A stretch of DNA of 64,000 nt from Caballeronia sp. SBC1 (GTDB taxonomy: Bacteria > Pseudomonadota > Gammaproteobacteria > Burkholderiales > Burkholderiaceae), in the NCBI RefSeq assembly GCF_011493005.1, contig NZ_CP049156.1, positions 1,860,001-1,924,000 of the forward strand. The letters are read 5' to 3'. A program made the translations under genes and the position numbers. Numbering within the stretch: the first letter of the stretch is position 1; each line of letters starts with the position of its first letter. Below are positions 2,674 through 20,891 of the stretch, piece by piece. The notes below the pieces were generated by a model. That model searched no databases. It was not told where the DNA came from and was given only the letters and a program-made list of their open reading frames with translations.

Positions 2674-3390
2674 ATGCACGATCTGCGCTGGACCATACCC
2701 GTTGCCCGATGGTCCGCCACCGCTGCCGCTGCGACCTCCGATATCAGCTTTATCGAGCCGATCGTCCGCCGTCGTCTGAGCAGCCTGTCCCGCAGCGCCC
2801 TCAAGGTCGCCCATGACTGTGTGGCTGAGCTGGACCGCGTGCGCGTGGTGTTCGCATCGCGGCACGGTGAACTGCGGCGCACGACCGACATCCTGCGCGC
2901 CATCAGCACGGGCGAGCCGGTTTCTCCAACTGCTTTCAGCCTGTCCGTCCTCAACGCAATGACCGGTATATTCGGCATCGCCCGGGGCGATCGTTCACCC
3001 GCCAGCGCGATTTCCGCCGGGGCGGAAACGCTTGGGTTTGCAATGCTCGAAGCGCATGCGCAGTTCGAAGCGGACCCGTCGTCGCCCGTGCTGCTGGTCT
3101 ATGCGGACGAGCCGCCCGATGCCGCCTACGGCACGATTGAAGACGAGGTGCAAGGCGGTGCGATCGCGATCCTGCTCGACACCCGCGCGGCCGGAAAGCT
3201 TACATGCACCATATCGGGTACAGGGAGCCTATCGGGAACGCCGGAACTGGCATCGGGACTTCTTACCGTGCCGGACTCTTTCCTTACGCAGAGCGAAGCG
3301 GTCCAACGCTGTCTCGACACACAGGCGCCCGCCACATGGCAAAACGCCGGCACTACCTGGCAATGGAGCTGGCATGAAGGCGCGGCTTAA
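2674..3390 (+). CDS. Ketosynthase-like chain length factor (ApeC-like, Ketoacyl-synt_2 family)
   Basis: Short ketosynthase-like protein of about 238 residues, the family that acts as chain-length-factor partner of the elongating ketosynthase in aryl polyene synthesis (ApeC of the ApeO-ApeC heterodimer). It shows the family pattern: WTIPVARWSA near the start, RRRLSSLSRSALKVA, VFASRHGEL, SPTAFSLSVLNA and VLLVYADEP. It has no ketosynthase Cys-His-His set, so it is expected to be non-catalytic. The frame is open upstream to 2611; I chose the ATG at 2674 because conserved sequence begins there, though no strong ribosome binding site precedes either start. Its last 17 bases overlap the next gene, suggesting translational coupling. 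Confidence 0.85.
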   Translation: MHDLRWTIPVARWSATAAAATSDISFIEPIVRRRLSSLSRSALKVAHDCVAELDRVRVVFASRHGELRRTTDILRAISTGEPVSPTAFSLSVLNAMTGIFGIARGDRSPASAISAGAETLGFAMLEAHAQFEADPSSPVLLVYADEPPDAAYGTIEDEVQGGAIAILLDTRAAGKLTCTISGTGSLSGTPELASGLLTVPDSFLTQSEAVQRCLDTQAPATWQNAGTTWQWSWHEGAA

Positions 3391-4168
3391 CTACGGCTGG
3401 CGGCTGGTCGCCACGGGCATGAGCTTTGTCGTGTTCGGCGTCTGCGGACTGCTGTTCTCGGTGCTGGTGTTTCCGATCTCGTGGCTGTGGCCGCATCGCG
3501 CATCGCGTCAGCGGGTGGTCACTACCATTATTCACTGGTTTTTCCGGGCGCTGGTAGCTGGCTTGAAGTGGGTCGGCGTGATGGAACTGGAAGTCTCGGG
3601 AGCAGCCGCGTTGCGCGACGCCGGCCCCGTAGTTGTGGTTGCCAACCACCCGACCTACCTCGACGTGGTGGTGCTGCTCGCGCTCACACCTTCGGCATGT
3701 TGCGTGGTCAAGAGCGCACACTGGGGCAACCCCTGTTTTTGGGGCATCGTGCGCGCGGCCGAATACGTGAGCAACGTCGACCCGATCGAACTCGTTGAAG
3801 CCAGCGCCCGCCAGATTGCCGCGGGCTATACCATGATCATTTTCCCGGAAGGCACGCGTAGTCCCGCGCCGAACCGCTTGCACGCTTTTTCGCGCGGTTT
3901 TGCGCACATCGCCCTCAAGGCAGGCACGCCGATCCTGCCCGTGCTGATGGATTGCGACCCGCCGGCCTTCACCAAGCAGATGCGCTGGTATGACGTGCCG
4001 TCGCGTGCGTTCCGCATTCGCGTGAACGTGCTCGAGCCCGTCGCGGCTGACCAGCTCATGACGCATGATTCTTCTCCGGCCCTTGCCGCGCGCACTTTAA
4101 CCAGCGCTATTGAGGCACACATTAACCAGCGGCTGTTCGACTATGGATTCTTTGAAACTGGAAATTAA
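3374..4168 (+). CDS. PlsC-type lysophospholipid acyltransferase (ApeG-like)
   Basis: Membrane-bound acyltransferase of the 1-acylglycerol-3-phosphate acyltransferase fold. A hydrophobic segment (about 15-38) is followed by the HX4D catalytic motif in NHPTYLD (His92, Asp97) and by FPEGTRS (157-163), which binds the phosphate of the acceptor. In aryl polyene clusters such enzymes are thought to help attach the polyene acyl chain to a lipid anchor; that role is inferred from context. The ATG at 3374 lies inside the end of the preceding gene, and the gene's end overlaps the first ACP gene by 26 bases. Confidence 0.88.
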   Translation: MKARLNYGWRLVATGMSFVVFGVCGLLFSVLVFPISWLWPHRASRQRVVTTIIHWFFRALVAGLKWVGVMELEVSGAAALRDAGPVVVVANHPTYLDVVVLLALTPSACCVVKSAHWGNPCFWGIVRAAEYVSNVDPIELVEASARQIAAGYTMIIFPEGTRSPAPNRLHAFSRGFAHIALKAGTPILPVLMDCDPPAFTKQMRWYDVPSRAFRIRVNVLEPVAADQLMTHDSSPALAARTLTSAIEAHINQRLFDYGFFETGN

Positions 4169-4448
4169 GCAGCTTCTGATCGATGCACTCGATCTGGAAG
4201 ACCTGACGCCTGCGGACATCGATGACGATGCGCCGCTGTTCGACACCGATGGCATCGGACTCGATTCGATCGACGCACTCGAGATCGGCATCGTGCTGCG
4301 CAAACATTATCAATTGACTATTGCGGCGAACGACGAACGCACGCGAGAGCACTTCCGTTCGATCAGCACGCTCGCCGCGCTGGTCGCCAGCCAGCGCGGC
4401 GAGCTGAGTACTACGAACGACATCGGGGAAAAGGGGAGTAAATCGTGA
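4143..4448 (+). CDS. Acyl carrier protein 1 of the aryl polyene cluster
   Basis: Acyl carrier protein of 101 residues that carries the growing chain on a phosphopantetheine arm. The attachment site is Ser42 in GLDSIDALEI, preceded by an acidic helix-I region as usual. A C-terminal tail of about 15 polar residues extends past the normal ACP fold. Start ATG at 4143 lies within the preceding acyltransferase gene. The gene ends in a GTGA overlap with the second ACP gene. The two carriers are probably specialised (starter loading versus elongation), as proposed for ApeE and ApeF; which is which cannot be told here. Confidence 0.92.
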   Translation: MDSLKLEIKQLLIDALDLEDLTPADIDDDAPLFDTDGIGLDSIDALEIGIVLRKHYQLTIAANDERTREHFRSISTLAALVASQRGELSTTNDIGEKGSKS

Positions 4449-4696
4449 CCGAGACAGAGATCCTTGAGCGCATCCGCGCCATCTTTAAAGAGAACTTCGC
4501 GATCGAGCCCGACCGCGTGACGCCGCAAGCGCATCTGTACGAGGACCTCGACCTGGATAGCATCGACGCCGTCGATCTCGCTATCAAGCTGCAGGAAATG
4601 ACCGGACGGCGCATCAAGCCGGAAGAGTTCAAGTCGGTCCGCACGGTCGGCGATGTGATCGGTGCGGTGGAATCGCTGCTGGCGGAACAGGGGTGA
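4445..4696 (+). CDS. Acyl carrier protein 2 of the aryl polyene cluster
   Basis: Second ACP, 83 residues, with the 4'-phosphopantetheine attachment Ser39 in DLDLDSIDAVDL. It begins with GTG in a 4-base overlap with ACP 1 and ends overlapping the next start by one or four bases, typical of coupled translation. Compared with ACP 1 it is shorter and has no tail. No phosphopantetheinyl transferase gene is visible in the window, so it must rely on one elsewhere. Confidence 0.93.
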   Translation: MTETEILERIRAIFKENFAIEPDRVTPQAHLYEDLDLDSIDAVDLAIKLQEMTGRRIKPEEFKSVRTVGDVIGAVESLLAEQG

Positions 4697-5358
4697 TGCA
4701 CGCGGAGCATTCACGTTCCGGCGGGCAGGGTGCCGCAGCGCCTGAAGGCCTGCGCGCCAAGCCCTTTGACCTGCTGCGAACGGTTCTGCAAGTTGCCCTG
4801 AAGGTCGCTTACCCGTTGATGATCTTGTGTGCATGGCGCTGGGATTCACCGCGATACATTGGCGCCGCGCTATTCGCTTTGCTTTGGCTGCAGCGCTGGG
4901 CCGGGACCGGCACGTTCGCGACGTCGCTGAGGCAACTCACCGCCACCGACTGGTGCGTCGCGGGCCTGCTAAGTTGCGCATCGGCTGCGATCGTAGTGTC
5001 GGGCAGTGAATTGCTGTTGCATCTATACCCCTCGTTTGTGAACCTCGGACTGCTGGTCGCGTTCGGCGCGACACTTGTGCGCGGACCATCGATGATCGAA
5101 AAATTCGCGCGCATGGGTAATCCGGCGCTTGGCGCGCATGCGGTGCGGTACACGCGCCGGGTCACGCAAATGTGGTGCGTGTTCTTCACGTTAAATGGCG
5201 CGTTTTCCGCTTATACGGCATTGTTCTGGACCCGTGCTGCCTGGTCGCTCTATAACGGCGCGATCGCGTATGGCCTTATCGGCGTGTTGCTGGTTGGCGA
5301 GATCGTATGGCGCTACGTGGCCGTGCTGCCGCGCGCCGCGCGCTCGGAGGCGGCATGA
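4696..5358 (+). CDS. COG4648-type membrane protein of aryl polyene clusters
   Basis: Integral membrane protein of 221 residues with about six hydrophobic segments and few charged residues between them. I recognise it as the uncharacterised COG4648 type that regularly accompanies aryl polyene and xanthomonadin-like clusters. No catalytic motif is evident. Its constant company suggests a role in membrane assembly, anchoring or transport of the polyene, but this is inference. GTG at 4693 and ATG at 4696 are both possible starts; each overlaps the stop of ACP 2. It ends just before the ATG of the ligase fusion at 5355, overlapping it by 4 bases. Confidence 0.8.
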   Translation: MHAEHSRSGGQGAAAPEGLRAKPFDLLRTVLQVALKVAYPLMILCAWRWDSPRYIGAALFALLWLQRWAGTGTFATSLRQLTATDWCVAGLLSCASAAIVVSGSELLLHLYPSFVNLGLLVAFGATLVRGPSMIEKFARMGNPALGAHAVRYTRRVTQMWCVFFTLNGAFSAYTALFWTRAAWSLYNGAIAYGLIGVLLVGEIVWRYVAVLPRAARSEAA

Positions 5359-7043
5359 TTGCGTTGCACGATGTGATGTGCTCCAAGCGTGACGCCGACA
5401 CGCCGGTTTGCCGCGACGGTGCTGAAATACTCGATTTCGCCACGTTCCTTGCGCGAGTGCGGGCCATCGCCGCGCATTTGAGCGAGCAGCCGGCGCGACG
5501 CTATGCGTTGTGCATTGACGATCCGTTCAACTTCGCCTGCGCGTTGTTCGCGCTATTCGCCTGCGGCAAGGAACCGGTCATTCCAGCGCATGCAGCGCCC
5601 GGTTATCTGGCCGATCTCTCGAATGCCTACGACGTTGTCCTAACCGATGCCGACATGCCTGCGCTGGTTTCACGACCAGAGTATGTCAATCCTTCAGTAT
5701 CGATCGACCCGCACGCGCCGCTCACGCTGTACACCTCGGGCAGCAGCGGTACACCGAAGCCAATCCGCAAGACCCTTGCGCAATTCAACGCTGAAGTTCA
5801 TACGCTCGAGACGCAGTGGGGCCTGCTTGTCGGCGATGCAACGGTGCTCGGCAGCGTCCCGCATCATCACATTTACGGGCTGCTGTTTCGCGTGTTCTGG
5901 CCGATCGCGACAGGGCGCGCATTCGACCGCGCGCTCAGCATTGAACCGCAACATGTGCAAGCGCGGATCGCGCAATGCGGGCCGGGTTCCTCGGTCGTGG
6001 TGTCTACTCCAGCGCAGCTATTGCGCTGGCCTGAACTCGATGGTTTCGCCAACCTGAGTCCTGCACCTCGCGTGTTCTTTTCATCGGGTGGTCCGCTTTC
6101 GGCAGACGCAGCGAGCAAATATGCGGCAGCCTTCGGCGCGGCGCCGGTCGAGATCTACGGCAGCACGGAGACGGGCGGCATTGCATGGCGGCGGCAGGAT
6201 CAGACGGATGCATGGCAAGCGTTGAACGGTATCGAGGTTCATCGTGGCGACGACGGTGCGCTTAACCTGCGTTCACCGCATCTGGGCCATGACGACTGGC
6301 ATCGCACCGACGACACCATCGCGCTTGACACGGACGGGCGCTTTCGTCTGCAAGGACGCCTCGACCGCGTGATCAAGCTCGATGGCAAGCGCGTCTCCTT
6401 GCCCGAACTTGAATCCCGCCTCGGGCTGCATCCGTATGTGGTGCAGGCGGCGGTTGTGTCGCTTGAAGGGATGTCGCGCGAGCGTGTCGGCGCGGTGGTG
6501 GCGCTCACCGATGCCGGTAGCGCAGCACTGCTGGAACGAGGGCGCGTAGCGCTCGCTAAGGTCCTGCGCCGCCACCTTGCGGCGTACTTCGATATTGTCG
6601 TGCTGCCGCGTTTCTGGCGCTTCCGTTTCGCACTTCCGTTCGATGCCCGCGGAAAGTTGCCGGCAGCGGCTGTTGCCGCCGCGTTCGATGCCCGCGCGGA
6701 CGGCGTGGAAGTGCTCTCTGAAGTGCGCAGCAAGACTGCTCTGCACTACGAACTTCGCGTGCCAACGACTCTCGTGCATTTCGCCGGCCACTTCCCCGGC
6801 TTGCCGATCTTGCCGGGCGTTGTACAGATCGACTGGGCCATGCGGTTGGCGGCCGAGCAAGCGCCGGGCGTGCGCATGCTGGCATCGATCGAACAGTTGA
6901 AATTCAAGGCGCCCGTACCACCGGGGGCGCTGCTCGATCTCACGTTGACGCATGACGCGCCGCGCCGGCGTGTGCAATTTGCGTATCGGCTCGGTGGCCG
7001 GGATTGTTCGTCGGGCGTCATTGTTTATCGGGGGACCGCATGA
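5355..7043 (+). CDS. AMP-dependent aryl-acid ligase fused to a hotdog dehydratase (ApeH-ApeI fusion)
   Basis: Two-domain protein of 562 residues. Residues 1 to about 445 form an ANL-family acid:ACP/CoA ligase: P-loop YTSGSSGTPKP (126-136), YGSTETGG (268-275), hinge RLDRVIKLDGKR (335-346) and the C-terminal catalytic Lys434 in DARGKLP. Residues about 460-562 form a FabA/FabZ-like hotdog domain with HFAGHFPGLPILPGVVQI (475-492), which carries the dehydratase His. In E. coli-type aryl polyene clusters these are separate ligase and ApeI proteins. The inferred role is to activate the aryl acrylic starter and load it on an ACP, and to dehydrate 3-hydroxyacyl intermediates. The ATG at 5355 has GGAGG upstream and overlaps the preceding gene by 4 bases; the stop overlaps the next start (ATGA). 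Confidence 0.88.
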   Translation: MIALHDVMCSKRDADTPVCRDGAEILDFATFLARVRAIAAHLSEQPARRYALCIDDPFNFACALFALFACGKEPVIPAHAAPGYLADLSNAYDVVLTDADMPALVSRPEYVNPSVSIDPHAPLTLYTSGSSGTPKPIRKTLAQFNAEVHTLETQWGLLVGDATVLGSVPHHHIYGLLFRVFWPIATGRAFDRALSIEPQHVQARIAQCGPGSSVVVSTPAQLLRWPELDGFANLSPAPRVFFSSGGPLSADAASKYAAAFGAAPVEIYGSTETGGIAWRRQDQTDAWQALNGIEVHRGDDGALNLRSPHLGHDDWHRTDDTIALDTDGRFRLQGRLDRVIKLDGKRVSLPELESRLGLHPYVVQAAVVSLEGMSRERVGAVVALTDAGSAALLERGRVALAKVLRRHLAAYFDIVVLPRFWRFRFALPFDARGKLPAAAVAAAFDARADGVEVLSEVRSKTALHYELRVPTTLVHFAGHFPGLPILPGVVQIDWAMRLAAEQAPGVRMLASIEQLKFKAPVPPGALLDLTLTHDAPRRRVQFAYRLGGRDCSSGVIVYRGTA

Positions 7044-8767
7044 GCTTTCTGCCGTGCATCGTTATCCCGATCTACAACCACAAGGACGCGATCAGCGCGA
7101 CCATCGCGAATCTCAGCGTGCATGGGTTACCGCTTTTTATCGTCGATGATGGCAGCGATCAGGCCACCCAGGATGTGCTTGCGTCGCTTCAGCAACAATA
7201 CGCGGATACGCTCACGCTGATCCGTTTGCCGGTCAACGGCGGCAAAGGCGCAGCGGTGATGGCGGGCTTGCGGGCCGCGCGGAAGGCGGGCTTCACGCAT
7301 GGCTTGCAGATCGACGCAGACGGACAGCACGACAGCGCCGATGTACCGCGCTTTATCGAAGCGGCTCGTGTGGAACCGGGCGCTGTGATTCTCGGCCGCC
7401 CCATCTACGACGACTCCGTACCGAAGTCGCGTCTCTATGGCCGTTATCTGACGCATGTGTGGGTGTGGATCGAAACGCTCTCGTTCACGATCCGCGATTC
7501 CATGTGCGGTTTTCGCCTGTATCCGCTTGACGTGGTGTGCGTGTTGATCGATGAGGTCAGCCTCCCGACGCGCATGGATTTCGACATCGAGATACTGGTG
7601 CGGCTGTACTGGCGCCGGACAGCGTTCCGTTCGATCCCGACGCGCGTCACCTATGCAACCGACGGCGTTTCGCATTTCGACATGCTGTGGGACAACGTGC
7701 GCATCAGCCGTACGCATACGCGGCTCGTTGTGGGCATGCTGGCACGGCTGCCAGTGCTGCTTGCGCACAAACTGATGCCGCGCGCATCGAATGAAACCGA
7801 GCAGCACTGGTGGCATATAGCGGAACGCGGCAGTCATCTTGGCATGTCCTTGCTTGCGCTTAGCTGCCGTCTCTTTGGCACGCGCTTCACCGCATTGTGG
7901 CTACATCCGATTGTTGCCTATTTCCTGTTGACCGGAGGCCGCGCCCGCGCTGCGTCGCGCAGCTACTTCACGCATCTTCAACAAGCCGCACCGCAGGATC
8001 AAACGCCTCGCCCGGGATGGTTGTCCGCATATAAACACATGCTGGAATTCGCGCGATCCGGCTTCGATAAACTCGCTGCATGGTCGGGTCGCGTCAACAT
8101 GGACGACGTGAAGTTCGACGACCCGGCCGCATTCGAGGCACTGAGCGCGAGCGGCCGTGGCGCACTCGTGATTGGCGCGCATCTCGGCAATCTGGAGATG
8201 ACCCGCGCGCTTGCCACGCGCGGTGCGCGGGCGAAGATCACCGCGGTTGTCTACACGGAGCACGCGCGCCGTTTCAACAACGTGCTGGCATCGGCGAATA
8301 GCGAGTTCGCGCAACGTCTTGTCGAGGTCAGCGACTTCGGCCCCGAGACGGCGATGATGATGCAGGATCGGGTGGAGGCAGGCGAGCTGCTGGTGATCGT
8401 TGGCGATCGCGTGCCCGCGCATGATTCGGGTCGCACGACTGAGGCACAGTTTCTTGGCTCAACGGCGCCTTTCGCGCAAGGGCCATACGTGCTTGCCCAT
8501 GCGTTGGGTTGCCCCGTGTACCTGTTTTTCTGCTTGAAGGAAGAGCAGGGCTACAGGCTCTACTTCGAGCCGTTCGCGGAACGCATCGAGTTGCCGCGCC
8601 GGGAGCGTGCGCAGCATCTCGCGGCGTGGGCACAACGTTATGCGTCGCGTCTCGAACACTATTGCCGCAAGGCACCTTATCAATGGTTCAATTTTTTCGA
8701 TTTCTGGGCGCGGCCCAATGGCAATGGTAATGGCACTGGCACGGGAGGCGCGAATGGCCGAACTTGA
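7040..8767 (+). CDS. Family 2 glycosyltransferase fused to an LpxL-like acyltransferase (ApeJ-like)
   Basis: Bifunctional protein of 575 residues. Residues 1 to about 230 are a GT-A family 2 glycosyltransferase related to dolichol-phosphate-mannose synthases: CIVIPIYNHKD, VDDGSD (35-40) and the metal-binding DADGQHD (92-98). Residues about 300-560 are a lysophospholipid/Kdo-lipid acyltransferase-like domain with the HX4E motif in GAHLGNLEM and a later GDRVPAHDSG stretch. The C-terminus ends in an Asn/Gly/Thr-rich low-complexity tail. The likely job is building the glycolipid anchor and acylating it with the polyene at the inner membrane. Start ATG overlaps the previous stop; the end overlaps the lyase gene by 14 bases. 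Confidence 0.85.
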   Translation: MSFLPCIVIPIYNHKDAISATIANLSVHGLPLFIVDDGSDQATQDVLASLQQQYADTLTLIRLPVNGGKGAAVMAGLRAARKAGFTHGLQIDADGQHDSADVPRFIEAARVEPGAVILGRPIYDDSVPKSRLYGRYLTHVWVWIETLSFTIRDSMCGFRLYPLDVVCVLIDEVSLPTRMDFDIEILVRLYWRRTAFRSIPTRVTYATDGVSHFDMLWDNVRISRTHTRLVVGMLARLPVLLAHKLMPRASNETEQHWWHIAERGSHLGMSLLALSCRLFGTRFTALWLHPIVAYFLLTGGRARAASRSYFTHLQQAAPQDQTPRPGWLSAYKHMLEFARSGFDKLAAWSGRVNMDDVKFDDPAAFEALSASGRGALVIGAHLGNLEMTRALATRGARAKITAVVYTEHARRFNNVLASANSEFAQRLVEVSDFGPETAMMMQDRVEAGELLVIVGDRVPAHDSGRTTEAQFLGSTAPFAQGPYVLAHALGCPVYLFFCLKEEQGYRLYFEPFAERIELPRRERAQHLAAWAQRYASRLEHYCRKAPYQWFNFFDFWARPNGNGNGTGTGGANGRT

Positions 8768-10352
8768 TCCGAGCGGCCCAATAGCCGAGTTGGCTTATAC
8801 AGCCGAAGAAGCGATCGTCATCGGCGGCAGGCGGCTGACGATCGAAGAGGTCGTATCGATTGCCCATCGGCGAACGCCCATCGCTTTGAGTGCCGATCCG
8901 GCGTGGCGCGCACGGATTGAACGCGGCGCCGAATTCCTGCGCCGCCACTTGGCACAGGGCGCGACCGTCTATGGGGTCAACACCGGTTACGGCGACTCGT
9001 GCGTAGTCGACGTACCCATGGAACTGGTCGAAGTCTTGCCCCTGCAATTGCTGCGTTATCACGGCTGCGGCATGGGCCAGCATCTCGACGACGCGCAGAC
9101 GCTCGCCGTCATTGCCGCGCGGCTCAATTCCCTGGCGTACGGCTTCTCAGGTGTACGGCATGTGCTGCTTGAACGGCTCGCCGACCTGATCAATTATCGC
9201 GTGCTGCCACGGATTCCATCGGAGGGATCGGTGGGGGCGAGCGGTGACCTGACGCCGTTGTCATACGTGGCGGCCGCGCTGGTTGGCGAGCGCGACGTGC
9301 GGTTTAACGACGAGTTATGCAACGCCCGCAGCGTCTGGGCCAAACTTGGCCATACACCACTCACGCTTGCGCCGAAAGAGGGGCTCGCGCTGATGAACGG
9401 CACGGCGGTCATGACGGGTCTCGCATGCCTCGCGTTCGCCCGTGCCGGTCACCTGACGCGGCTCGCAGCACGCCTCACCGCGTTGTCCACCGTCGCGCTC
9501 GACGGCCGCGCCGCACACTTCGACCCCATATTGTTCGAAGTAAAGCCACATGCAGGGCAGGCCGAAGCCGCGGCATGGATTCGCGACGATCTCGCCGGCC
9601 GTGAGGACACGCCGGGGCATCGCCTGCAGGATCGCTATTCCATCCGCTGTGCGCCGCATGTGATCGGCGTTGCGCGTGATGCGCTGTCGTGGGTGCGTCG
9701 CGACGTCGAGAACGAGCTGAACAGCGCCAACGACAATCCGCTGATCGATCCCGATGGCGAGCGCGTGTTGCACGGCGGTAACTTCTACGGTGGCCATATT
9801 GCCTTCGCGATGGACGCACTGAAGGTAGCGGTCGCGAATCTGGCCGACCTGATGGATCGTCAACTGGCGCTGCTCGTCGACGATAAATTCAACAACGGCC
9901 TGCCGCGCAGTTTATCGGGCGCGGCGCCGGAGCGCGCATCGATCAATCACGGCTTCAAGGCGGTGCAGATATCGTCGTCGGCATGGACTGCGGAAGCGCT
10001 CAAGCTAACCATGCCTGCTAGCGTATTCTCGCGCTCGACCGAAGCGCATAACCAGGACAAAGTGAGCATGGGTACCATCGCCGCACGTGATTGCCTGCGT
10101 ATCCTGGAGCTGACCGAGCAAGTTGCCGCTGCCCATACGCTCGCGACTGTGCAGGCTGCGCGCTTGCGTCTACGCATCAACAATACGACACCCATCCCCC
10201 CGCCATTGCACGCTTTCATGGAGAGCGTGACAGCCGGATCGCCGTTCGTCGATGAAGACCGCGCGCTCGAAAGCGACCTGCGCGCACTGACTGCGCGGAT
10301 CGCGGCGTGCAATCTGGTTGGAGGATATGGTGGAGAGGATCGTCATGAGTGA
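8754..10352 (+). CDS. Aromatic amino acid ammonia-lyase (HAL/TAL/PAL superfamily)
   Basis: 532-residue lyase that eliminates ammonia from an aromatic amino acid to give an aryl acrylic acid, the presumed polyene starter. The MIO cofactor forms from Ala162-Ser163-Gly164 in GSVGASGDLTPLSY. The catalytic Tyr is Tyr73 in VYGVNTGYG, and NENDNP-like ELNSANDNP is present. The substrate-selectivity stretch reads LLRYHGCGMG, that is Tyr-His where histidine lyases usually have Ser-His and some tyrosine lyases His-Leu, so Tyr, Phe or His cannot be decided by reading. The lack of any hut genes nearby argues against histidine catabolism. GGGAGG lies before the ATG at 8754; upstream in-frame sequence belongs to the overlapping glycosyltransferase gene. 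Confidence 0.9.
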   Translation: MAELDPSGPIAELAYTAEEAIVIGGRRLTIEEVVSIAHRRTPIALSADPAWRARIERGAEFLRRHLAQGATVYGVNTGYGDSCVVDVPMELVEVLPLQLLRYHGCGMGQHLDDAQTLAVIAARLNSLAYGFSGVRHVLLERLADLINYRVLPRIPSEGSVGASGDLTPLSYVAAALVGERDVRFNDELCNARSVWAKLGHTPLTLAPKEGLALMNGTAVMTGLACLAFARAGHLTRLAARLTALSTVALDGRAAHFDPILFEVKPHAGQAEAAAWIRDDLAGREDTPGHRLQDRYSIRCAPHVIGVARDALSWVRRDVENELNSANDNPLIDPDGERVLHGGNFYGGHIAFAMDALKVAVANLADLMDRQLALLVDDKFNNGLPRSLSGAAPERASINHGFKAVQISSSAWTAEALKLTMPASVFSRSTEAHNQDKVSMGTIAARDCLRILELTEQVAAAHTLATVQAARLRLRINNTTPIPPPLHAFMESVTAGSPFVDEDRALESDLRALTARIAACNLVGGYGGEDRHE

Positions 10353-10782
10353 AGCTGTTGCCCCGAGGGTGCTGACTGCGAGCGCGGCAGTTGAAGTACC
10401 GTTCCATGACGTCGACGCCATGAACGTCTGCTGGCACGGCCACTACTTGAAGTACTTCGAGATCGGCCGGGCCGCGCTGCTGCGCGTGTTCGACTATGAC
10501 TATCGCGAGATGCAGGCGTCGGGCTATCACTGGCCGATCGTCGAAGTGCATCTCAAGTACGTGCGCCCGGCCATTTACGGGCAGCAGATCGAGGTACGCG
10601 CGCAATTGCTGGAATATCAAAACCGCTTGAAAATTGGCTACGAGATTGTCGATGCCGCTTCAGGAGGGCGTCTGACGAAGGGCCACACGATTCAGGTTGC
10701 CGTCAACGCCGCGACGCAGGAATTGCAGTTCGTGTCGCCGCCCGTGATGATCGAGAAACTGGAGCGCGCATGGGCACGTTGA
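10345..10782 (+). CDS. 4HBT-family acyl thioesterase (ApeK-like)
   Basis: Hotdog-fold thioesterase of 145 residues similar to YbgC / 4-hydroxybenzoyl-CoA thioesterases. The signature FHDVDAMNVCWHGHYLKYFE (20-39) carries the catalytic Asp region. It probably frees the finished or mis-primed polyene chain from its ACP, or edits stalled intermediates. The ATG at 10345 is preceded by GAGAGG at a good distance; earlier in-frame ATGs at 10318 and 10327 are less well placed. It overlaps the lyase gene by 8 bases and the LolA-like gene by 13 bases. Confidence 0.88.
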   Translation: MSEAVAPRVLTASAAVEVPFHDVDAMNVCWHGHYLKYFEIGRAALLRVFDYDYREMQASGYHWPIVEVHLKYVRPAIYGQQIEVRAQLLEYQNRLKIGYEIVDAASGGRLTKGHTIQVAVNAATQELQFVSPPVMIEKLERAWAR

Positions 10783-13825: not shown

Positions 13826-15006
13826 ACGGGCCAAGGGTTTATCTGCATGCGCTAGGGATGATCAATGCGCTCGGCGATAGTGTCGGCTCGATCGTGCCTG
13901 CGCTCGCGGCCGTGGTTTCACCCGGCATGGGGACGATCCATACCGGTATCGGCGATGCGTTTGTTGGCAGCGTGACCGTGCCGCTCGATCTCGCGCCTGC
14001 GGACTCGCTCGCACGTTACGACTGCCGCAACAACCGGCTGCTGCTTGCCGCGCTCGTACAGATCGCGCCGGCGGTAGAAACCGCTCGCGAGCGTTACGGC
14101 GCACATCGGATTGGCGTGGTGCTGGGCACGAGCACATCGGGTATTGAAGCGGCCGAGGCTGCGTTCGTGTACCAGGCGCAAGCGGGCAAATTGCCAGTGA
14201 GCTTCGACTATCGGCAAGTTGAAATTGGTACGGTGGCGCCGTTCGCCGCCGCGGCGCTGGGCGTCCATGGACCGGCATTCACGATCTCGACCGCGTGCAC
14301 ATCGAGCGCCAAGGCCTTTGTTTCCGCACGTCGGTTACTTCAGTTGCACCTGTGCGATGCGGTCGTGGTCGGCGGTGTTGATTCGCTATGCGAATTGACT
14401 GTACAGGGCTTTGCGTCGCTCGAATCGACCAGTGTGGTCCGCTCTAATCCGATGAGCCGTAATCGCAGCGGGATCAATGTGGGCGAGGGCGCGGCCGTGT
14501 TCCTGATGAGCCGCGACGAAGGCCCGGTGGTACTCGCGGGCGTGGGCGAATCGAGCGATGCGCATCACATTTCCGCACCCGATCCACACGGCGCGGGTGG
14601 TGAAATCGCATTACGTGCAGCACTGGCGGACGCCGGTCTTGCTCCGGCCGATATTGCTTATGTGAACCTCCATGCAACGGCGACGCGCAAGAACGACGAC
14701 ATGGAAGCACACCTGATGGCGCGGGTGTTCAAGGACGGCGTTGCGGCGAGCGGCACCAAGCCGATGACCGGACATCAACTCGGCGCAGCGGGCGCGACTG
14801 AGCTGGGGTTCGCGTGGCTCACGCTCGCGCGCGACGACGTCGCTTTGCCGCGTCATCTGTGGGACGGAGAGGCCGACCCGGCGTTGCCTCCACTCGATCT
14901 GGTCGAAAACGAGCGTTACCTGCGGCGCACGGCGGCCGCGCAATACGTGATGAGCAATTCGTTTGCGTTCGGCGGCAGCAACGTCAGCCTGATTCTCGGC
15001 CGGTGA
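13822..15006 (+). CDS. Beta-ketoacyl-ACP synthase, first (ApeO-like)
   Basis: Ketosynthase of 394 residues with a complete Cys-His-His set: Cys159 in STACTSSAKAF, His284 in NLHATATRKND and His318 in MTGHQLGAAG. The divergent HATAT in place of HGTST matches the aryl polyene elongating type. It is the best candidate partner for the chain-length-factor-like protein encoded at 2674-3390, though the two genes are 10 kb apart within the operon. AAGGAGGG lies directly before the ATG at 13822. The stop is shared with the next start (TGATG). Confidence 0.88.
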   Translation: MNGPRVYLHALGMINALGDSVGSIVPALAAVVSPGMGTIHTGIGDAFVGSVTVPLDLAPADSLARYDCRNNRLLLAALVQIAPAVETARERYGAHRIGVVLGTSTSGIEAAEAAFVYQAQAGKLPVSFDYRQVEIGTVAPFAAAALGVHGPAFTISTACTSSAKAFVSARRLLQLHLCDAVVVGGVDSLCELTVQGFASLESTSVVRSNPMSRNRSGINVGEGAAVFLMSRDEGPVVLAGVGESSDAHHISAPDPHGAGGEIALRAALADAGLAPADIAYVNLHATATRKNDDMEAHLMARVFKDGVAASGTKPMTGHQLGAAGATELGFAWLTLARDDVALPRHLWDGEADPALPPLDLVENERYLRRTAAAQYVMSNSFAFGGSNVSLILGR

Positions 15007-15503
15007 TGACTGTGACGACCCCTATGAATAACAACAGCTTTGGCTCCATTGAAACGATCTTGCCGCACCGGGGCAGCATGCTGCTGCTCGACGGCGTCAG
15101 CGCCTGCACGGACGAAACCCTGACCGCTTACGCAAGCGTTCGCGCGGATGCGTGGTATGCCGATGCCGACGGTGCGATGCCGGTGTGGATCGGTATCGAA
15201 CTGATGGCGCAGGCAATTGCTGCTCACGTTGCTTTACTCGCGATGCGCGCAGGCGGTCAGGCACGTCCCGGCGTCCTGCTCGGATCGCGCCGGTACGAAG
15301 CGCATATCCCGGTGTTTGCATGCGGTGCCCGTTTACGCATAGAAGTGAAAGAGCTGCTGCGCGGTGAAGAAGGTCACGGCGCGTACGAATGCACGATTCA
15401 TGATGACCAGGATCACAGCAGCGTGTGCTGCGCCGAAGCAGTCATCAAGGTGTATCAACCGGTTGATTTTCAGTCGTTTATTGTTGGGAGTTTCGGATCA
15501 TGA
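15006..15503 (+). CDS. Hotdog 3-hydroxyacyl-ACP dehydratase (ApeP-like)
   Basis: Dehydratase-like protein of 165 residues. ILPHRGSMLLLDGV corresponds to the FabZ His motif and IGIELMAQAIAAHVAL to the Glu/Gln-bearing central helix. In characterised aryl polyene pathways, ApeP works as a heterocomplex with ApeI; here the ApeI partner is the C-terminal domain of the ligase fusion at 5355-7043. ATG at 15006 overlaps the preceding stop by one base; a second ATG lies at 15024. The end overlaps the ketoreductase start. Confidence 0.85.
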   Translation: MTVTTPMNNNSFGSIETILPHRGSMLLLDGVSACTDETLTAYASVRADAWYADADGAMPVWIGIELMAQAIAAHVALLAMRAGGQARPGVLLGSRRYEAHIPVFACGARLRIEVKELLRGEEGHGAYECTIHDDQDHSSVCCAEAVIKVYQPVDFQSFIVGSFGS

Positions 15504-16225
15504 GCCGGCGAGTTCTTGTAACGGGTGCGAGCCGTGGCATCGGCCGCGCGATAGCGTATCAACTCGCGGCAGACGGCTTCACGGTCTCCGTGCACTGCCG
15601 CAGCGGGCGCACTGAAGCCGAAGCTGTCGCGACCGGCATTGCCGCTCAAGGCGGCACGGCACGCGTGCTGCAATTCGATGTCCGCGACCGCGCTGCATGC
15701 CGCGAAGTGCTCGAAGCAGACGTGGCTAGCTACGGCGCGTATTACGGCATCGTCTGTTGCGCGGGCGTGACGCGAGACGCGGCGTTCCCGGCGCTCACCG
15801 AAGAGGACTGGGACATCGTGATCGAAACCGGTCTCGATTCTTTCTATAACGTCGTGCATCCGCTGACCATGCCGCTTGTGCGCGCGAAGCAGGGTGGTCG
15901 CATAGTGACGATCGCCTCGGTCTCCGGCGTGACGGGCAATCGCGGACAGGTGAACTACAGCGCGGCGAAGGCCGGACTCATTGGCGCTACGAAGGCGCTC
16001 GCCGTCGAACTCGCGACGCGCAATATCACCGTCAATTGCGTCGCTCCCGGATTGATCGACACCGGCATGCTTGAGGGCGTACCGCTCGAACAGGCATTGA
16101 AAACGGTGCCGATGAACCGCGTCGGGCAACCGGCCGAAGTCGCGTCCGTGGTGAGTTTTCTCATGTCGGATGCGGCCTCGTACATCACGAGGCAAGTGAT
16201 CGGTGTCAACGGCGGGATGATCTGA
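15500..16225 (+). CDS. 3-ketoacyl-ACP reductase (FabG-like, ApeQ-like)
   Basis: Short-chain dehydrogenase of 241 residues that reduces the 3-ketoacyl-ACP formed in each polyene cycle, using NADPH. Cofactor motif TGASRGIG (8-15); catalytic Ser around 140, Tyr153 and Lys157 in NYSAAK; C-terminal GVNGGM as in FabG. It is coupled on both sides: ATGA overlap with the dehydratase gene and TGATG overlap with the next ketosynthase. GGGAG lies upstream of the start. Confidence 0.92.
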   Translation: MSRRVLVTGASRGIGRAIAYQLAADGFTVSVHCRSGRTEAEAVATGIAAQGGTARVLQFDVRDRAACREVLEADVASYGAYYGIVCCAGVTRDAAFPALTEEDWDIVIETGLDSFYNVVHPLTMPLVRAKQGGRIVTIASVSGVTGNRGQVNYSAAKAGLIGATKALAVELATRNITVNCVAPGLIDTGMLEGVPLEQALKTVPMNRVGQPAEVASVVSFLMSDAASYITRQVIGVNGGMI

Positions 16226-17451
16226 TGAAGCGCGTGGTCATTACCGGCATGGGCGGCGTCACGGCATTCGGAAATGCATGGGACGAGATCGAAGCAAACT
16301 TGAGAAACGGCCGCAACGCCGTGCGCCGGATGCCCGAGTGGGACTACTTCGAGTTGCTGCATACGCGGCTCGCGTGCCCCTTGCCCGCGTTCACCACGCC
16401 AGCTCATTACCCGCGCAAGAAAACGCGTTCAATGGGACCCGTGTCTCTGTATTCGGTGCGCGCGAGCGAACTGGCGCTGGCCGATGCGGGTCTCGCCGAT
16501 GACCTCACGATCAAGGACGGACGCATGGGGGTGGCGTACGGATCGTCATCCGGATCGGTCCAGCCGATTCGCGCATTCGGCAAGATGATCGAAACCGGTT
16601 CTATGAGCGACGTGACCTCGAATAGCTATGTGCAGATGATGCCGCATACCACGGCCGTCAACGTCAGCCTGTTCTGGGATCTGAAGGGCCGGATTGTGCC
16701 GACATCTTGCGCGTGTGCATCGGGCAGCCAGGCGATCGGTTACGCCTACGAGATGATTGCAGCCGGCAAGCAAACGCTGATGCTCGCGGGCGGTGCGGAG
16801 GAGCTGTCCGGCCCGGCTGTCGCCGTGTTCGACACGCTCTACGCCACCAGCACGCGCAACGACGAGCCGCACCTGACCCCGCGTCCCTTTGATATTGCCC
16901 GTGACGGGCTCGTGGTCGGTGAAGGTGCCGCAACCCTGGTGCTCGAAGAGTATGAACACGCGCTTGCACGCGGGGCGCGCATTCATGCGGAGATCGTAGG
17001 CTTTGGTTGTAACTCGGACGGGGCGCACATGACGCAACCATCGGCCGAGACCATGGCCTTCGCCATGCAGCTCGCGCTGCGCGACGCACAACTTCCGGCT
17101 GAAGCTATTGCCTATGTCAACGCGCATGGCACGTCGACGGATCGCGGCGATGTAGCAGAAAGCCACGCGACGGCCCAGACTTTTGGCGAGCGTTTGCCGA
17201 TCAGCTCGTTGAAGAGTTACGTTGGCCATACGCTGGGCGCGTGCGGTGCGCTGGAGGCGTGGTGGACCATCGAGATGATGAAGCGCAACTGGTATGCACC
17301 GACGCTGAACCTGAAGGAGGTTGATCCGGCTTGCGCACCGCTCGACTACATCATGGATAGCGGGCGTACGATCGATGCCGAATATGTCATGAGTAACAAC
17401 TTCGCATTTGGCGGCATCAATACGTCGCTGATTTTCAGGCGCGTGCCATGA
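16225..17451 (+). CDS. Beta-ketoacyl-ACP synthase, second (FabF/FabB-like, ApeR-like)
   Basis: Ketosynthase of 408 residues, FabF/FabB type. Active Cys164 in SCACASGSQA, His301 in NAHGTSTDRGD and His335 in YVGHTLGACG form a full catalytic set. It is the closest of the three to ordinary fatty acid synthases and may perform the first condensation(s) with the aryl starter, as proposed for ApeR; this is inferred. Start overlaps the ketoreductase stop and its end overlaps the next ketosynthase by 4 bases. Confidence 0.9.
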   Translation: MKRVVITGMGGVTAFGNAWDEIEANLRNGRNAVRRMPEWDYFELLHTRLACPLPAFTTPAHYPRKKTRSMGPVSLYSVRASELALADAGLADDLTIKDGRMGVAYGSSSGSVQPIRAFGKMIETGSMSDVTSNSYVQMMPHTTAVNVSLFWDLKGRIVPTSCACASGSQAIGYAYEMIAAGKQTLMLAGGAEELSGPAVAVFDTLYATSTRNDEPHLTPRPFDIARDGLVVGEGAATLVLEEYEHALARGARIHAEIVGFGCNSDGAHMTQPSAETMAFAMQLALRDAQLPAEAIAYVNAHGTSTDRGDVAESHATAQTFGERLPISSLKSYVGHTLGACGALEAWWTIEMMKRNWYAPTLNLKEVDPACAPLDYIMDSGRTIDAEYVMSNNFAFGGINTSLIFRRVP

Positions 17452-18695
17452 GCGGGGTTTCTTCGACGCCCCGTGGCCTGTCACGCGTGGTCGTGACGGG
17501 CATGGGCATTGTGTCGTGCCTGGGTGGTACGCTCGACGAAGTTTCCACCGCCTTGCGCGAGGGCCAAAGCGGCATTATGCGTGTCGATGCATGGCGTGAA
17601 CGTGGCCTTGCAAGTCAGGTGGCGGGCGTAGCGTCCATTGCAGATGAGCCGCCGTTCGATCGCAAGCTCGAACGCTTCATGGGCGACACGGCGCGTTTTG
17701 CGTGTCACGCGGCACGCAAGGCTATACACGATGCCAACCTCGATCTCTCACTGTTGCGTTCGCCGCGTGCAGGCGCGGTAATCGGCTCGGGCACCGGCAC
17801 GCTCTCGGCTTATGACGCAGCGATAGAGATGGCCTGCGCGCGCGGTATCGAGAAAGTGCCGCCATACGCGGTCCCGCAGGTGATGGGCAGCACCACATCG
17901 GCGAACGTGGCTCAGGTGTTCGGGCTGGAGGGCATGACCTATTCGCCGTCGTCGGCCTGCACCACATCAGCGCTGGCGATCGGACAGGCGATGCAACTGA
18001 TCCAGACCGGCCGCCAACAGATCGTACTCGCGGGCGGCAGCGAAGGTTTGCATGAAAACACCACCATGTTGTTCGACGCAATGGGGGCATTGTCGAGGCG
18101 TTTTAACGACGCCCCGGAACGTGCCTCGCGTCCCTATGACAGCTCGCGCGATGGCTTCGTCATTGCGTCAGGCGGCGGCGTGCTGGTGCTTGAGTCGCTG
18201 AACCACGCCTTGTCGCGCGGCGCACGCATTCATGCCGAACTGACGGGTTTTGGCCACTGTACGGATGGTGCGGGCATGGTGAGCCCGCATGCATCGGGCA
18301 TCGCGCGCGCCATGCGCGGCGCACTCGATGAAGCAGGTACACGTCCGTCCTATATCAACACGCACGCACCCTCTACACCGCTTGGCGACGTCGAGGAACT
18401 GCACGCGTTATGTGATGTATTTGGCGACGACATCCCGTTGTTTTCATCGACGAAGGGATTGTCCGGTCATCCGCTTGGAGCCTGTGGCGTGCACGAAGCA
18501 ATCTACGCGTTGCTGATGATGCGCGATGGTTTTGTCGCGGGGACGGGGCCGATCGAAACGCCCGATCCACGCACGAACGGCATGCCGCTCGTGCGCACGT
18601 CGCGGCCGATGAAGATAGACACCGCGATGTCGATTTCATTCGGGTTCGGCGGCAGTTGCGCCAGCCTGGTCTTCGATGCCTGGAAGGGTGTTTGA
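17448..18695 (+). CDS. Beta-ketoacyl-ACP synthase, third
   Basis: Ketosynthase of 415 residues with Cys171 in SSACTTSALAIG, His306 and His341 (LSGHPLGACG). The first His sits in NTHAPST rather than the usual NAHGTST, so it is a diverged but apparently complete synthase. It is the last gene of the coupled operon. Characterised aryl polyene systems need one ketosynthase/chain-length-factor pair plus one more ketosynthase, so this looks like an additional condensing enzyme; it could set chain length or prefer a special intermediate. ATGA overlap with the preceding gene. No clear hairpin terminator follows in the 44 bases before the convergent methyltransferase gene. Confidence 0.87.
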   Translation: MSGVSSTPRGLSRVVVTGMGIVSCLGGTLDEVSTALREGQSGIMRVDAWRERGLASQVAGVASIADEPPFDRKLERFMGDTARFACHAARKAIHDANLDLSLLRSPRAGAVIGSGTGTLSAYDAAIEMACARGIEKVPPYAVPQVMGSTTSANVAQVFGLEGMTYSPSSACTTSALAIGQAMQLIQTGRQQIVLAGGSEGLHENTTMLFDAMGALSRRFNDAPERASRPYDSSRDGFVIASGGGVLVLESLNHALSRGARIHAELTGFGHCTDGAGMVSPHASGIARAMRGALDEAGTRPSYINTHAPSTPLGDVEELHALCDVFGDDIPLFSSTKGLSGHPLGACGVHEAIYALLMMRDGFVAGTGPIETPDPRTNGMPLVRTSRPMKIDTAMSISFGFGGSCASLVFDAWKGV

Positions 18696-18739
18696 AAATG
18701 TTCCACTGAACACAATGACCGTACTGCGTTTCGGCTGAT

Positions 18740-19537
18740 TCAACCGGCCTTGATCGCGGCCACGTTGACAAGCGTTTCACGACGCTTGCCCGGCAATGGC
18801 CGATGCAACCCAAGCCGTTCAAGGAGTCCGAAGTCCGCGGCACGACTCCACCACAGGTAGGGCATGGAAACGTTTTTCGAACCGAATGCAAAGCCGGCGT
18901 GGCGGATCATATCGAGGTAAGCGCCGGCGCTTTTCTGCACGTGCATGGGGTGGCGAAACAGCAAGCGGATCACCCAGGACTTGATATACGCATCGGTGGA
19001 TTCAGCGAATAGCAAAACCCCGCCGGGTTTCAGCACCCGGCGAAATTCAACCAGGGAGCGGCCTTGATCCACGAGATGATGAAAGGTCTGATGGCAGAAC
19101 ACGATGTCCGCGCTGGCATCGGGTAAGGGAAGCTGCGCGCAGTCGCCGTGAAGCAACTCGATCTCGCTGGTCCAGCCGTCGTTCTGCGAGCAAGCCCGCG
19201 CAGCATCCCGGGCTTCCGCGAGCGAAGGCTCATGAAAATCGACTCCGATGATCCGGCCGGGCCTGAACGCGTTGCCGAGCAGCCGGAACGATTGACCTTG
19301 CCCGCAGCCCACATCAACTATCACGGGAACCGCGGGCAGGGATGTATCGACCAGGCGTTTGAGGTCGTTGATCGCTACGCGCAACACGTGATGCTCCCAC
19401 GTGGCCGTACGTAGAAACCATAGCCCGAAGGCCGTCTCCGGGACGAAGGCAACGCTCGATATTTCGGATGACGACACGAATTTCTCTCCGGCAACAAAGG
19501 ATGCGAACAGGACGTACGTCATTGTAATGGCAAGCAT
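18740..19537 (-). CDS. SAM-dependent methyltransferase of the aryl polyene cluster
   Basis: Class I methyltransferase of about 265 residues (Methyltransf_11 type). SAM-binding motif I is VIVDVGCGQGQSF (73-85); the acidic loop HGDCAQLPLPDASADIV and motif FRRVLKPGGVLLF follow. The N-terminus has a hydrophobic stretch and the FGLWFLRTATWEHHVL block typical of methyltransferases in aryl polyene clusters, which are thought to methylate the aryl head group. Transcribed towards the operon end, divergent from the flavoprotein gene. The frame is open further upstream to 19879; I chose the ATG at 19537 because the longer version would run into the flavoprotein gene. ATG at 19522 is an alternative. Confidence 0.83.
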   Translation of the reverse strand: MLAITMTYVLFASFVAGEKFVSSSEISSVAFVPETAFGLWFLRTATWEHHVLRVAINDLKRLVDTSLPAVPVIVDVGCGQGQSFRLLGNAFRPGRIIGVDFHEPSLAEARDAARACSQNDGWTSEIELLHGDCAQLPLPDASADIVFCHQTFHHLVDQGRSLVEFRRVLKPGGVLLFAESTDAYIKSWVIRLLFRHPMHVQKSAGAYLDMIRHAGFAFGSKNVSMPYLWWSRAADFGLLERLGLHRPLPGKRRETLVNVAAIKAG

Positions 19538-19643
19538 GGCACTCGTAGAAGCAAGAGCCGGGCAACATGATTTACGTAAATGATTCACGTAACGTGCGCC
19601 GCACGAGACTTCACAGATAGCCCAACGCCTAAGCGAGGCACCC
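19538..19643. promoter_or_regulatory. Divergent promoter region with 13-bp tandem repeat
   Basis: Region between the methyltransferase and flavoprotein genes. Two head-to-tail 13-base units, ATGATTTACGTAA (19567-19579) and ATGATTCACGTAA (19580-19592), differ at one base. The first contributes to a perfect 12-base palindrome ATTTACGTAAAT (19570-19581). It looks like a binding site for a transcription factor that controls both genes; the factor is not identified. Confidence 0.5.
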
Positions 19644-20891
19644 TTGAATACTGATTCTTCGAATCTGAACACGACTGTCGATGTAGCCATCATTGGCGCT
19701 GGCCCCTCGGGGGCGGTCGCGGCTGCACTGCTCAGAAAGGCGGGCCGTTCGGTGCTCGTGCTTGAGCGCCAGCATTTTCCGCGCTTTTCGGTGGGCGAGA
19801 GCCTGTTGCCGCAAAGCATGGCGTACCTGGAAGAGGCCGGCATGCTGCAGGCCGTCGTCGAGGCCGGGTTCCAGTACAAGAACGGCGCGCATTTTATTTA
19901 TCGGGACCAGTCGTCGTCCTTTGATTTCCGCGACAAACATTCGCCGGGATGGGGCACGACGTATCAGGTCGAACGCGCGGTATTCGACGACCTGCTGATC
20001 AAATGTGCCGCGAAGCAGGGTGCCGAAGTGCGTTTCGGCCACACCGTCCAGGCGATGCAAACCGGCACTGCGCCCGTGCTCGATGTGATCGATGAAACGG
20101 GTGTTGCATACCGCGTGCAAGCGCGTTTTGTACTCGATGCAAGCGGCTTCGGCCGCGTATTGCCGCGTCTCCTGAATCTTGAAGCTCCCACGCGGATGCC
20201 CACGCGTGCGGCCATCTTTACGCACGTGCGCGATGGCATCCCGGCTGGCGCCACGGATCGGAACAAGATCTGCGTTGCGACGCACCCGGAGCATCGCAAT
20301 GTCTGGTTCTGGATGATTCCGCTGGCAGGCGGACGCTCGTCGGTTGGCTGCGTGGCCGAAGCGAGTTTTCTGGAGGGTCCCGAGGACGAACGCGATGCGA
20401 AGCTGCGCGCGCTGATCCAGCAGGAGCCGACGCTTAAGCGGCTCATCGGTGAGGCGCCGTTCCTGATGCCGGTGCGGCATATCGGTGGTTATTCGGCGAA
20501 CGTCGAGCGGCTGCATGGTCCGGGATACGCGTTGCTTGGTAACGCCGGCGAGTTCCTTGATCCGGTGTTTTCATCGGGTGTGACGATCGCGCTGCGCTCC
20601 GCGCATCTGGCGGTGCAAACGCTTGAGCGGCAGTTCAATGGGGAGACGCTCGACTGGCAGGCAGAGTACGATGTGCCGCTACGAAAAGGGATTGATACGT
20701 TCCGTGCATTCGTCGAACGGTGGTACACCGGCGAATTGCAGGACATCATCTTTTATCCGCATAAGACACCGCATATTCAGCGTTATATCAGCGCGGTGCT
20801 GGCGGGTTACGCATGGGACGAATCGAATCCTTACGTGGCCGATCCGGTGCGCAGACTCAACGCGCTTCATGAGATATGCAAGGGTTCTTGA
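19644..20891 (+). CDS. FAD-dependent oxidoreductase with flavin-halogenase-like motifs
   Basis: Flavoprotein of 415 residues. The Rossmann motif is GAGPSG (18-23), followed by FPRFSVGESLLP (45-56), common to halogenases and their relatives. Lys79 lies in FQYKNGAHF, and WFWMIP (221-226) fits the WxWxIP motif of flavin-dependent halogenases; GNAGEFLDPVFSSGV is the FAD-binding C-terminal block. It could halogenate the aryl head, as in brominated xanthomonadins, or act as an oxidoreductase or monooxygenase; related non-halogenating proteins share some of these motifs. A TTG start at 19644 with GAGG upstream is the only start that keeps the FAD motif. A perfect 18-bp hairpin follows the gene. Confidence 0.8.
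   Translation: MNTDSSNLNTTVDVAIIGAGPSGAVAAALLRKAGRSVLVLERQHFPRFSVGESLLPQSMAYLEEAGMLQAVVEAGFQYKNGAHFIYRDQSSSFDFRDKHSPGWGTTYQVERAVFDDLLIKCAAKQGAEVRFGHTVQAMQTGTAPVLDVIDETGVAYRVQARFVLDASGFGRVLPRLLNLEAPTRMPTRAAIFTHVRDGIPAGATDRNKICVATHPEHRNVWFWMIPLAGGRSSVGCVAEASFLEGPEDERDAKLRALIQQEPTLKRLIGEAPFLMPVRHIGGYSANVERLHGPGYALLGNAGEFLDPVFSSGVTIALRSAHLAVQTLERQFNGETLDWQAEYDVPLRKGIDTFRAFVERWYTGELQDIIFYPHKTPHIQRYISAVLAGYAWDESNPYVADPVRRLNALHEICKGS

Follow-up and report, generated by a model that had tools for sequence, protein, structure and literature searches.

We analysed a 64,000-nucleotide stretch of the genome of Caballeronia sp. SBC1 (the window). The genome measures 8.85 Mb, and the contig that carries the window 4.0 Mb. 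The window holds a complete-looking aryl polyene (ape) gene set at positions 2674 to 20891, predicted to make a membrane-anchored yellow pigment, with an aromatic amino acid ammonia-lyase gene inside it. Our preferred reading, which we regard as probable, is that this is a type II polyketide cluster of the lyase-bearing kind for an outer-membrane aryl polyene lipid, with the lyase feeding the starter. The observed gene set goes far beyond chance and recurs in 36 of 36 Burkholderiaceae loci surveyed, as far as their contigs extend.

An aryl polyene operon

The window was compared by BLAST with the ape locus of Escherichia coli O157:H7 Sakai (ECs_4324-4341; in strain CFT073, c1186 onward). Fourteen of the sixteen window genes matched fifteen ape genes (C, D, E, F, G, H, I, J, K, L, M, O, P, Q and R) with the order kept, at 25-64% identity and E values of 2e-15 or better; the lyase matched nothing in that locus. 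NCBIfam cut-offs were passed by both acyl carrier proteins (ACPs), ApeO, ApeQ and ApeR. We then placed the ketosynthases (KSs) in a tree of 43 sequences from the window, E. coli and 14 of 80 surveyed loci, chosen for spread, together with FabF and FabB. The 80 loci were the best of at least 588 relatives found by a lyase profile search of genome contigs, a sample that leans to close kin. ApeO and ApeR, checked for placement outside the aryl polyene clade, each fell inside their own 16-row clade with the E. coli Ape proteins, both with support of 100/100. ApeC was too short for the tree and was placed by its 26% identity to E. coli ApeC. The aryl polyene assignment made in the first-pass annotation is thus upheld by gene order and by the KS tree, both of which point to ape and led us to drop the idea of a new pathway class. 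The features of the class present are the pairing of a KS with a chain-length factor (ApeO-ApeC) plus ApeR; two ACPs, ApeH, ApeI, ApeP and ApeQ, all as best E. coli matches in order; and the genes for anchoring and transport (D, G, J, K, L and M). The genes are as follows.

2674..3390, +, ApeC-like chain-length factor, a partial KS (Ketoacyl-synt_2, PF13723, 196 bits); its sole E. coli match is ApeC, 26%, E 2e-15
3374..4168, +, ApeD-like lysophospholipid acyltransferase (PF01553; E. coli ApeD 36%)
4143..4448, +, ApeE-like ACP with the GLDSID serine kept (NF006617 above cut-off; E. coli ApeE 54%)
4445..4696, +, ApeF-like ACP with DLDSID (NF003757 above cut-off; E. coli ApeF 54%)
4693..5358, +, ApeG-like membrane protein (E. 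coli ApeG 42% across 115 positions; no Pfam match)
5355..7043, +, fusion of ApeH ligase and ApeI dehydratase in one frame (PF00501 and PF22818; ApeH 32%, ApeI 40%)
7040..8767, +, ApeJ, a glycosyltransferase (GT2) and LpxL-like acyltransferase in one frame (PF00535 and PF03279; halves 55% and 39% identical to the single E. coli ApeJ)
8754..10352, +, aromatic amino acid ammonia-lyase of the methylidene-imidazolone (MIO) type, 532 aa (PF00221, 536 bits; ASG triad, NQDKVSM)
10345..10782, +, ApeK-like thioesterase (PF13279; E. coli ApeK 51%)
10770..11417, +, ApeL, LolA-like carrier (PF19574; ApeL 25%)
11417..13825, +, ApeM, MMPL-family exporter (PF03176; ApeM 31% over almost the full length)
13822..15006, +, ApeO KS (NF006618 above cut-off; in the ApeO clade, 100/100)
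15003..15503, +, ApeP-like dehydratase, start 15003 GTG or 15006 ATG (PF22817; ApeP 30%)
15500..16225, +, ApeQ ketoreductase, FabG-like (TIGR01831 above cut-off; ApeQ 64%)
16225..17451, +, ApeR KS (NF006587 above cut-off; E. coli ApeR 60%; in the ApeR clade, 100/100)
17448..18695, +, extra complete KS, FabB-like, Cys/Lys/His/His kept (groups with E. coli FabB, 99/96)
18740..19483, -, S-adenosylmethionine-dependent methyltransferase, convergent, start about 19483 (PF08241)
19644..20891, +, halogenase-like flavin adenine dinucleotide (FAD) protein, start about 19644 (PF04820; four halogenase-type motifs)

The first sixteen are consecutive plus-strand genes (2674-18695). At all 15 junctions an in-frame start overlaps the previous stop by 1-26 bases, and by exactly 4 bases at eight, the start codons being choices among candidate starts; those of ApeJ (7040), the lyase (8754), ApeK (10345) and ApeO (13822) were refined here. 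The translationally coupled sixteen-gene unit of the first-pass annotation is therefore confirmed, as are its gene identities by Pfam and NCBIfam domains. That annotation had also joined the methyltransferase and the flavoprotein to the unit. Transcription of the methyltransferase gene, from the minus strand, converges with that of the operon, which puts it outside the operon's transcript; the flavoprotein, on the plus strand behind the methyltransferase, does belong to the cluster, by linkage (below). A promoter scan of 1800-20000 gave two sites against a shuffle mean of 5.3, fewer than in shuffled sequence.

Gene content, order, orthology and linkage are read from the sequence and suggest the following substrate, steps and product. 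The MIO lyase would remove ammonia from an aromatic amino acid, with tyrosine the likeliest, to give p-coumarate, which ApeH would load on an ACP. ApeO-ApeC and ApeR would elongate it with malonyl units, with reduction by ApeQ and dehydration by ApeI and ApeP. ApeK would free the acid, ApeD and ApeJ would join it to lipid, and ApeL and ApeM would export the product. Ring decoration is the probable role of the methyltransferase and the flavoprotein.

Several observations weigh against this reading. ApeA, ApeB and ApeN were not found by tblastn of the whole window (best E values 1.3, 2.7 and 3.0; ApeR control 8e-167), and the 4-base overlap of M and O leaves no space for ApeN. The available text of PMC8253772 describes ApeN (DUF3261) as conserved with G, L and M across aryl polyene biosynthetic gene clusters (BGCs). 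BLAST, here with a weak probe, did not find ApeN in any of 36 Burkholderiaceae or 32 Pseudomonas loci and found it in five of the 12 others. Since the loci without ApeN otherwise fit the ape class, we take ApeN to be common rather than defining. On the lyase, two HutH models score higher (417 and 414 bits) than the model for FlxA (322), the lyase of the flexirubin pathway, all below their cut-offs; and PMC3992019, in the part available, states that lyase substrate is not predictable from sequence alone. No ApeH position cleanly separates 81 lyase-bearing from five lyase-free clusters, a weak test with only five of the latter, and so there is no sign of a ligase retuned to cinnamates.

Layout among lyase-bearing clusters

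The first-pass annotation had called the layout unusual and suggestive of a variant product, citing the ligase-dehydratase fusion, the glycosyltransferase-acyltransferase fusion, the cluster's own lyase and a third complete KS. To place these features, we examined the 80 surveyed loci. The lyase, the H-I fusion and the glycosyltransferase-acyltransferase fusion were each present in 36 of 36 Burkholderiaceae loci, and the extra KS in 34 of 36; the remaining two (L081, L093) stop at a contig edge. In the same loci the methyltransferase gene was found in 30 of 36, always on the minus strand, and the FAD gene lay inside the 10-kb flank in 8 of 36. All 32 Pseudomonas loci have the lyase and the H-I fusion and none has the extra KS; the glycosyltransferase and acyltransferase are separate frames in 32 of 32, 30 carry the methyltransferase gene inside the operon, and in 31 the FAD gene separates M from O. 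The 12 other loci (Aliikangiella, Photobacterium, Deefgea, alphaproteobacterial bins and others; several cut short) have the lyase in 12, the H-I fusion in 8, the glycosyltransferase-acyltransferase fusion in 7, the FAD gene in 3 and the extra KS in 2. Overall, the ligase-dehydratase fusion occurs in 76 of the 80 lyase-bearing loci. The lyase lies between J and K/L in 80 of 80, spanning alpha-, beta- and gammaproteobacteria, as in the window, where its internal position (between J and K) had been recognised correctly. Genes were ordered by stop-to-stop frame start, so a few neighbours swap, and L086 and L092 list L before K. In another family genus, a lyase gene (L160:8232-9788, G654) stands at the cluster end, behind an AcpT-like gene.

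The literature is in line with these counts. In the available text of PMC8253772, the E. coli cluster has three KSs and J is listed as glycosyltransferase/acyltransferase. The Pseudomonas papers PMC8719888 and PMC5851621, as far as available, name an ammonia-lyase as one of the genes characteristic of, or shared by, Vibrio-type clusters, and the available part of PMC8506256 records aryl polyene BGCs in 27 of 35 Caballeronia species. Since each feature called odd belongs to a described cluster or is the norm in the family, an unusual variant is unsupported and we withdraw that claim: the seemingly odd layout is the usual one in the family.

Comparison with known systems points the same way. Relative to E. 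coli ape, the window adds the lyase, the H-I fusion, the FabB-like KS and the FAD protein, and its methyltransferase has no BLAST similarity to ApeB. The feature of the lyase-bearing subfamily, an MIO ammonia-lyase inside the cluster, is present in the window and shared with the Aliivibrio fischeri type (APE_Vf, subfamily 2), known here from partial published descriptions. The Pseudomonas loci differ from the window in the place of the FAD gene, the split glycosyltransferase and acyltransferase and the missing extra KS. Lyase-bearing relatives among the clusters of Burkholderia sensu lato, such as L061 and L062, have the same gene content and differ in sequence divergence and in the distance of the FAD gene. 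In the flexirubin cluster of Chitinophaga pinensis, according to the available text of PMC3992019, the lyase FlxA and the 4-coumarate ligase FlxY prime a fatty-acid-synthase-like aryl polyene line, a likeness to the window; unlike in the ape scheme, the polyene is esterified to a dialkylresorcinol. Xanthomonadin and arcuflavin, in the parts of PMC3691225 and PMC3949708 available, are aryl polyenes whose clusters have an acyltransferase and a halogenase (arcuflavin also a LolA protein and an exporter) and whose starter comes from a chorismatase (XanB2/ArcB). A chorismatase domain was absent among 19 scanned window proteins (one without a Pfam match), the search for XanB2 covering these proteins and not the remainder of the genome.

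The extra KS is the one complete KS from outside the ape clades, which excludes an ape origin for all of them. It and seven relatives group with E. coli FabB (99/96; the eight rows alone 83/82), and it matches E. coli ApeR at only 34%. The catalytic residues C171, H306, K336 and H341 are in place, and the score against the equivalog model NF005935 is under cut-off (463 vs 630). It is the only FabB-like KS found in this 8.85-Mb genome. The first His motif reads NTH[AG]PST in 26 of 37 copies, with 11 unmatched by this pattern.

The flavoprotein and ring decoration

To examine whether the halogenase-like neighbour is a cluster member, as first proposed, we searched 398 family genomes with E limits of 1e-100 for the FAD protein and 1e-120 for the lyase. 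For the flavoprotein and METHYLTRANSFERASE, the FAD protein was found in 164 of the 398 genomes and the lyase in 107, with both in 95, the lyase alone in 12 and the FAD protein alone in 69. In 92 of the 95 dual-positive genomes, the window's included, the two share a contig, their starts separated by 6.6 to 12.2 kb; the other three are fragmented assemblies with the two on separate contigs. This linkage rules out a chance neighbour and, together with the place of the gene inside the Pseudomonas operon, establishes that the FAD flavoprotein belongs to the cluster. Use of the FAD gene as a proxy for ape clusters was dropped, as G437 has only the FAD gene in the 20 kb opened, and ApeR took its place. 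In G522 the FAD gene stands beside an ApeQ-like reductase (L157:1532-3534), and the 20 kb opened there holds no further ape gene.

Halogenation by this protein is possible. It carries K79 (the lysine of GxxxKxG), WxWxIP at 221-226 and FxxPxxSxG at 304-312, which we take to be halogenase motifs, and all 46 near-full-length copies examined, the window's among them, keep these motifs intact. An alternative to our preferred reading is that the same cluster makes a distinct halogenated and/or methylated aryl polyene, with the flavoprotein a working ring halogenase. Besides the conserved motifs, this is favoured by several halogenases among the solved relatives of the protein and by the tie of its gene to the cluster, extending to its place between M and O in nearly all Pseudomonas loci. 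It is further favoured by the halogenase genes of the brominated xanthomonadin and arcuflavin clusters and by Lysobacter, which lacks the gene and has an unbrominated pigment (PMC3691225 and PMC3949708, in the parts available). However, the best solved relative is 3nix, named only flavoprotein/dehydrogenase (327 bits; the best halogenase 138 bits), and the protein could instead act as a hydroxylase or a dehydrogenase. Halogenation, if real, would be common in the family and not special to the window. We consider a distinct decorated product rather unlikely.

The ammonia-lyase and polyene priming

In the window lyase the MIO triad is ASG, and the two selectivity sites read YH (first) and NQDKVSM (second). 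Among 81 Ape lyases (the 80 loci and the window), the first site is YH or FH in 81 of 81 and the second NQDKVS in 81 and NQDKVSM in 80. Two HutH-like paralogues of the same genome read SH (LSH) and NQEDHVSM. We take the ASG triad and NQDKVSM to be as in tyrosine and phenylalanine ammonia-lyases (TAL/PAL), and the first site, [FY]H, to be that of neither TAL nor histidine ammonia-lyase (HAL). The best model is that of the BagA/FevW tyrosine lyase (434 bits against a cut-off of 1000); the closest named relatives among the matches listed are from Caballeronia sp. dw_19 and Caballeronia udeis (94-95%). In the available text of PMC3992019, FlxA is a proven tyrosine ammonia-lyase with a HAL-like motif 1 and a TAL/PAL-like motif 2, favours tyrosine over phenylalanine 1010-fold and feeds a 4-coumarate ligase. 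By this likeness in motifs and the FlxA preference, tyrosine is most likely the substrate of the window lyase. Our literature search turned up no report of a lyase substrate in aryl polyene clusters, though one may exist in print. A fourth lyase-family protein of the genome (L044, G000:C1:859743-861149) has no MIO-forming ASG triad at the aligned place.

If the enzyme were instead a phenylalanine ammonia-lyase, the starter would be cinnamate and the polyene would have no ring hydroxyl. The second motif is of the TAL/PAL kind and the aromatic residue (Y/F) at the first site is, presumably, as in PAL; the adjacent His, kept in 81 of 81 lyases, presumably suits a phenol, and FlxA sets the opposite precedent. 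We regard this as improbable. That the lyase is a HAL paralogue co-transcribed by chance, with no pigment role, is very improbable: the HutH scores of 414-417 bits are under cut-off, the LSH and QEDHVSM signature of the same-genome paralogues is missing, the J-lyase-K position holds throughout the survey (exception L160), and the lyase is kept in the stripped clusters described below. A HutH identity was dropped on motifs and position.

Acting on tyrosine, the lyase would open a second priming route into one and the same line. One cycle of condensation, reduction and dehydration turns 4-hydroxybenzoyl-ACP into 4-hydroxycinnamoyl-ACP, which is p-coumaroyl-ACP. As this intermediate is common to both routes, the lyase alone implies no new product, and its presence or absence with the rest of the cluster unchanged is explained. 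The same genome also encodes UbiC, a source of 4-hydroxybenzoate, which is thus available too. We tentatively propose, as an idea somewhat less likely than not, that one assembly line is primed interchangeably within genera, lyase-bearing clusters starting from an aromatic amino acid and lyase-free ones from chorismate-derived 4-hydroxybenzoate, the cluster being otherwise the same, and that core plus lyase in small-genome relatives would make a soluble, unanchored aryl polyene.

Within the genus, the lyase was found at 80% identity or more in 20 of 58 genomes, the window's included. A 3.9-Mb genome of the genus, G050, has the lyase in pieces (G050:C241:2144-3609) and a partial ApeR match that contains a stop, the picture to be expected of a cluster in decay. 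In the 398 family genomes, ApeR (E up to 1e-125) was found in 140; the lyase also passed in 105 of these and failed in 35, G050 among them. Thirteen of the 35 were opened for gene order. Clusters that are colinear with the window down to the extra KS and the FAD gene, have K next after J and give no lyase match were seen in five Caballeronia-like genomes (L152, L159, L166, L167, L168) and in four genomes of a sister genus (L169 to L172). Of the latter four, L170 gave no match to the H half of the fused gene and L171 gave no methyltransferase match. L158, L173, L174 and L154/L155 also have no lyase, with further differences or a contig end. Genome-wide, G049 and G007 have only a 37% lyase paralogue. 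The lyase is thus an optional part of the cluster, dispensable where another starter serves. Colinear clusters with and without it in one genus offer a clean natural comparison for its role.

The converse case is found in two small genomes, G462 (2.8 Mb) and G476 (2.25 Mb), which have the lyase and in which ApeR was not found. Genome-wide, neither has an ApeM match and ApeJ gives only weak glycosyltransferase matches (E 1e-4), against strong matches for both proteins in controls G049 and G736; the FAD protein was not found at the threshold used. Neither the extra KS nor D, F, G or L was seen in these clusters, the search for them covering the 20 kb opened. Both genomes keep the lyase motifs, the serine of the ACP and the cysteine of the KS, and the pattern for the second KS histidine is unmatched. 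Retention of the lyase where anchoring and export are lost indicates that it goes with the polyene-making core. Judged by their gene content, these stripped clusters would make an unanchored polyene. They run C-E-HI-lyase-K-O-P-Q (L164:7037-14688 in G462, L165:6799-14483 in G476), an identical set of eight genes in the two genomes, and their flanks differ.

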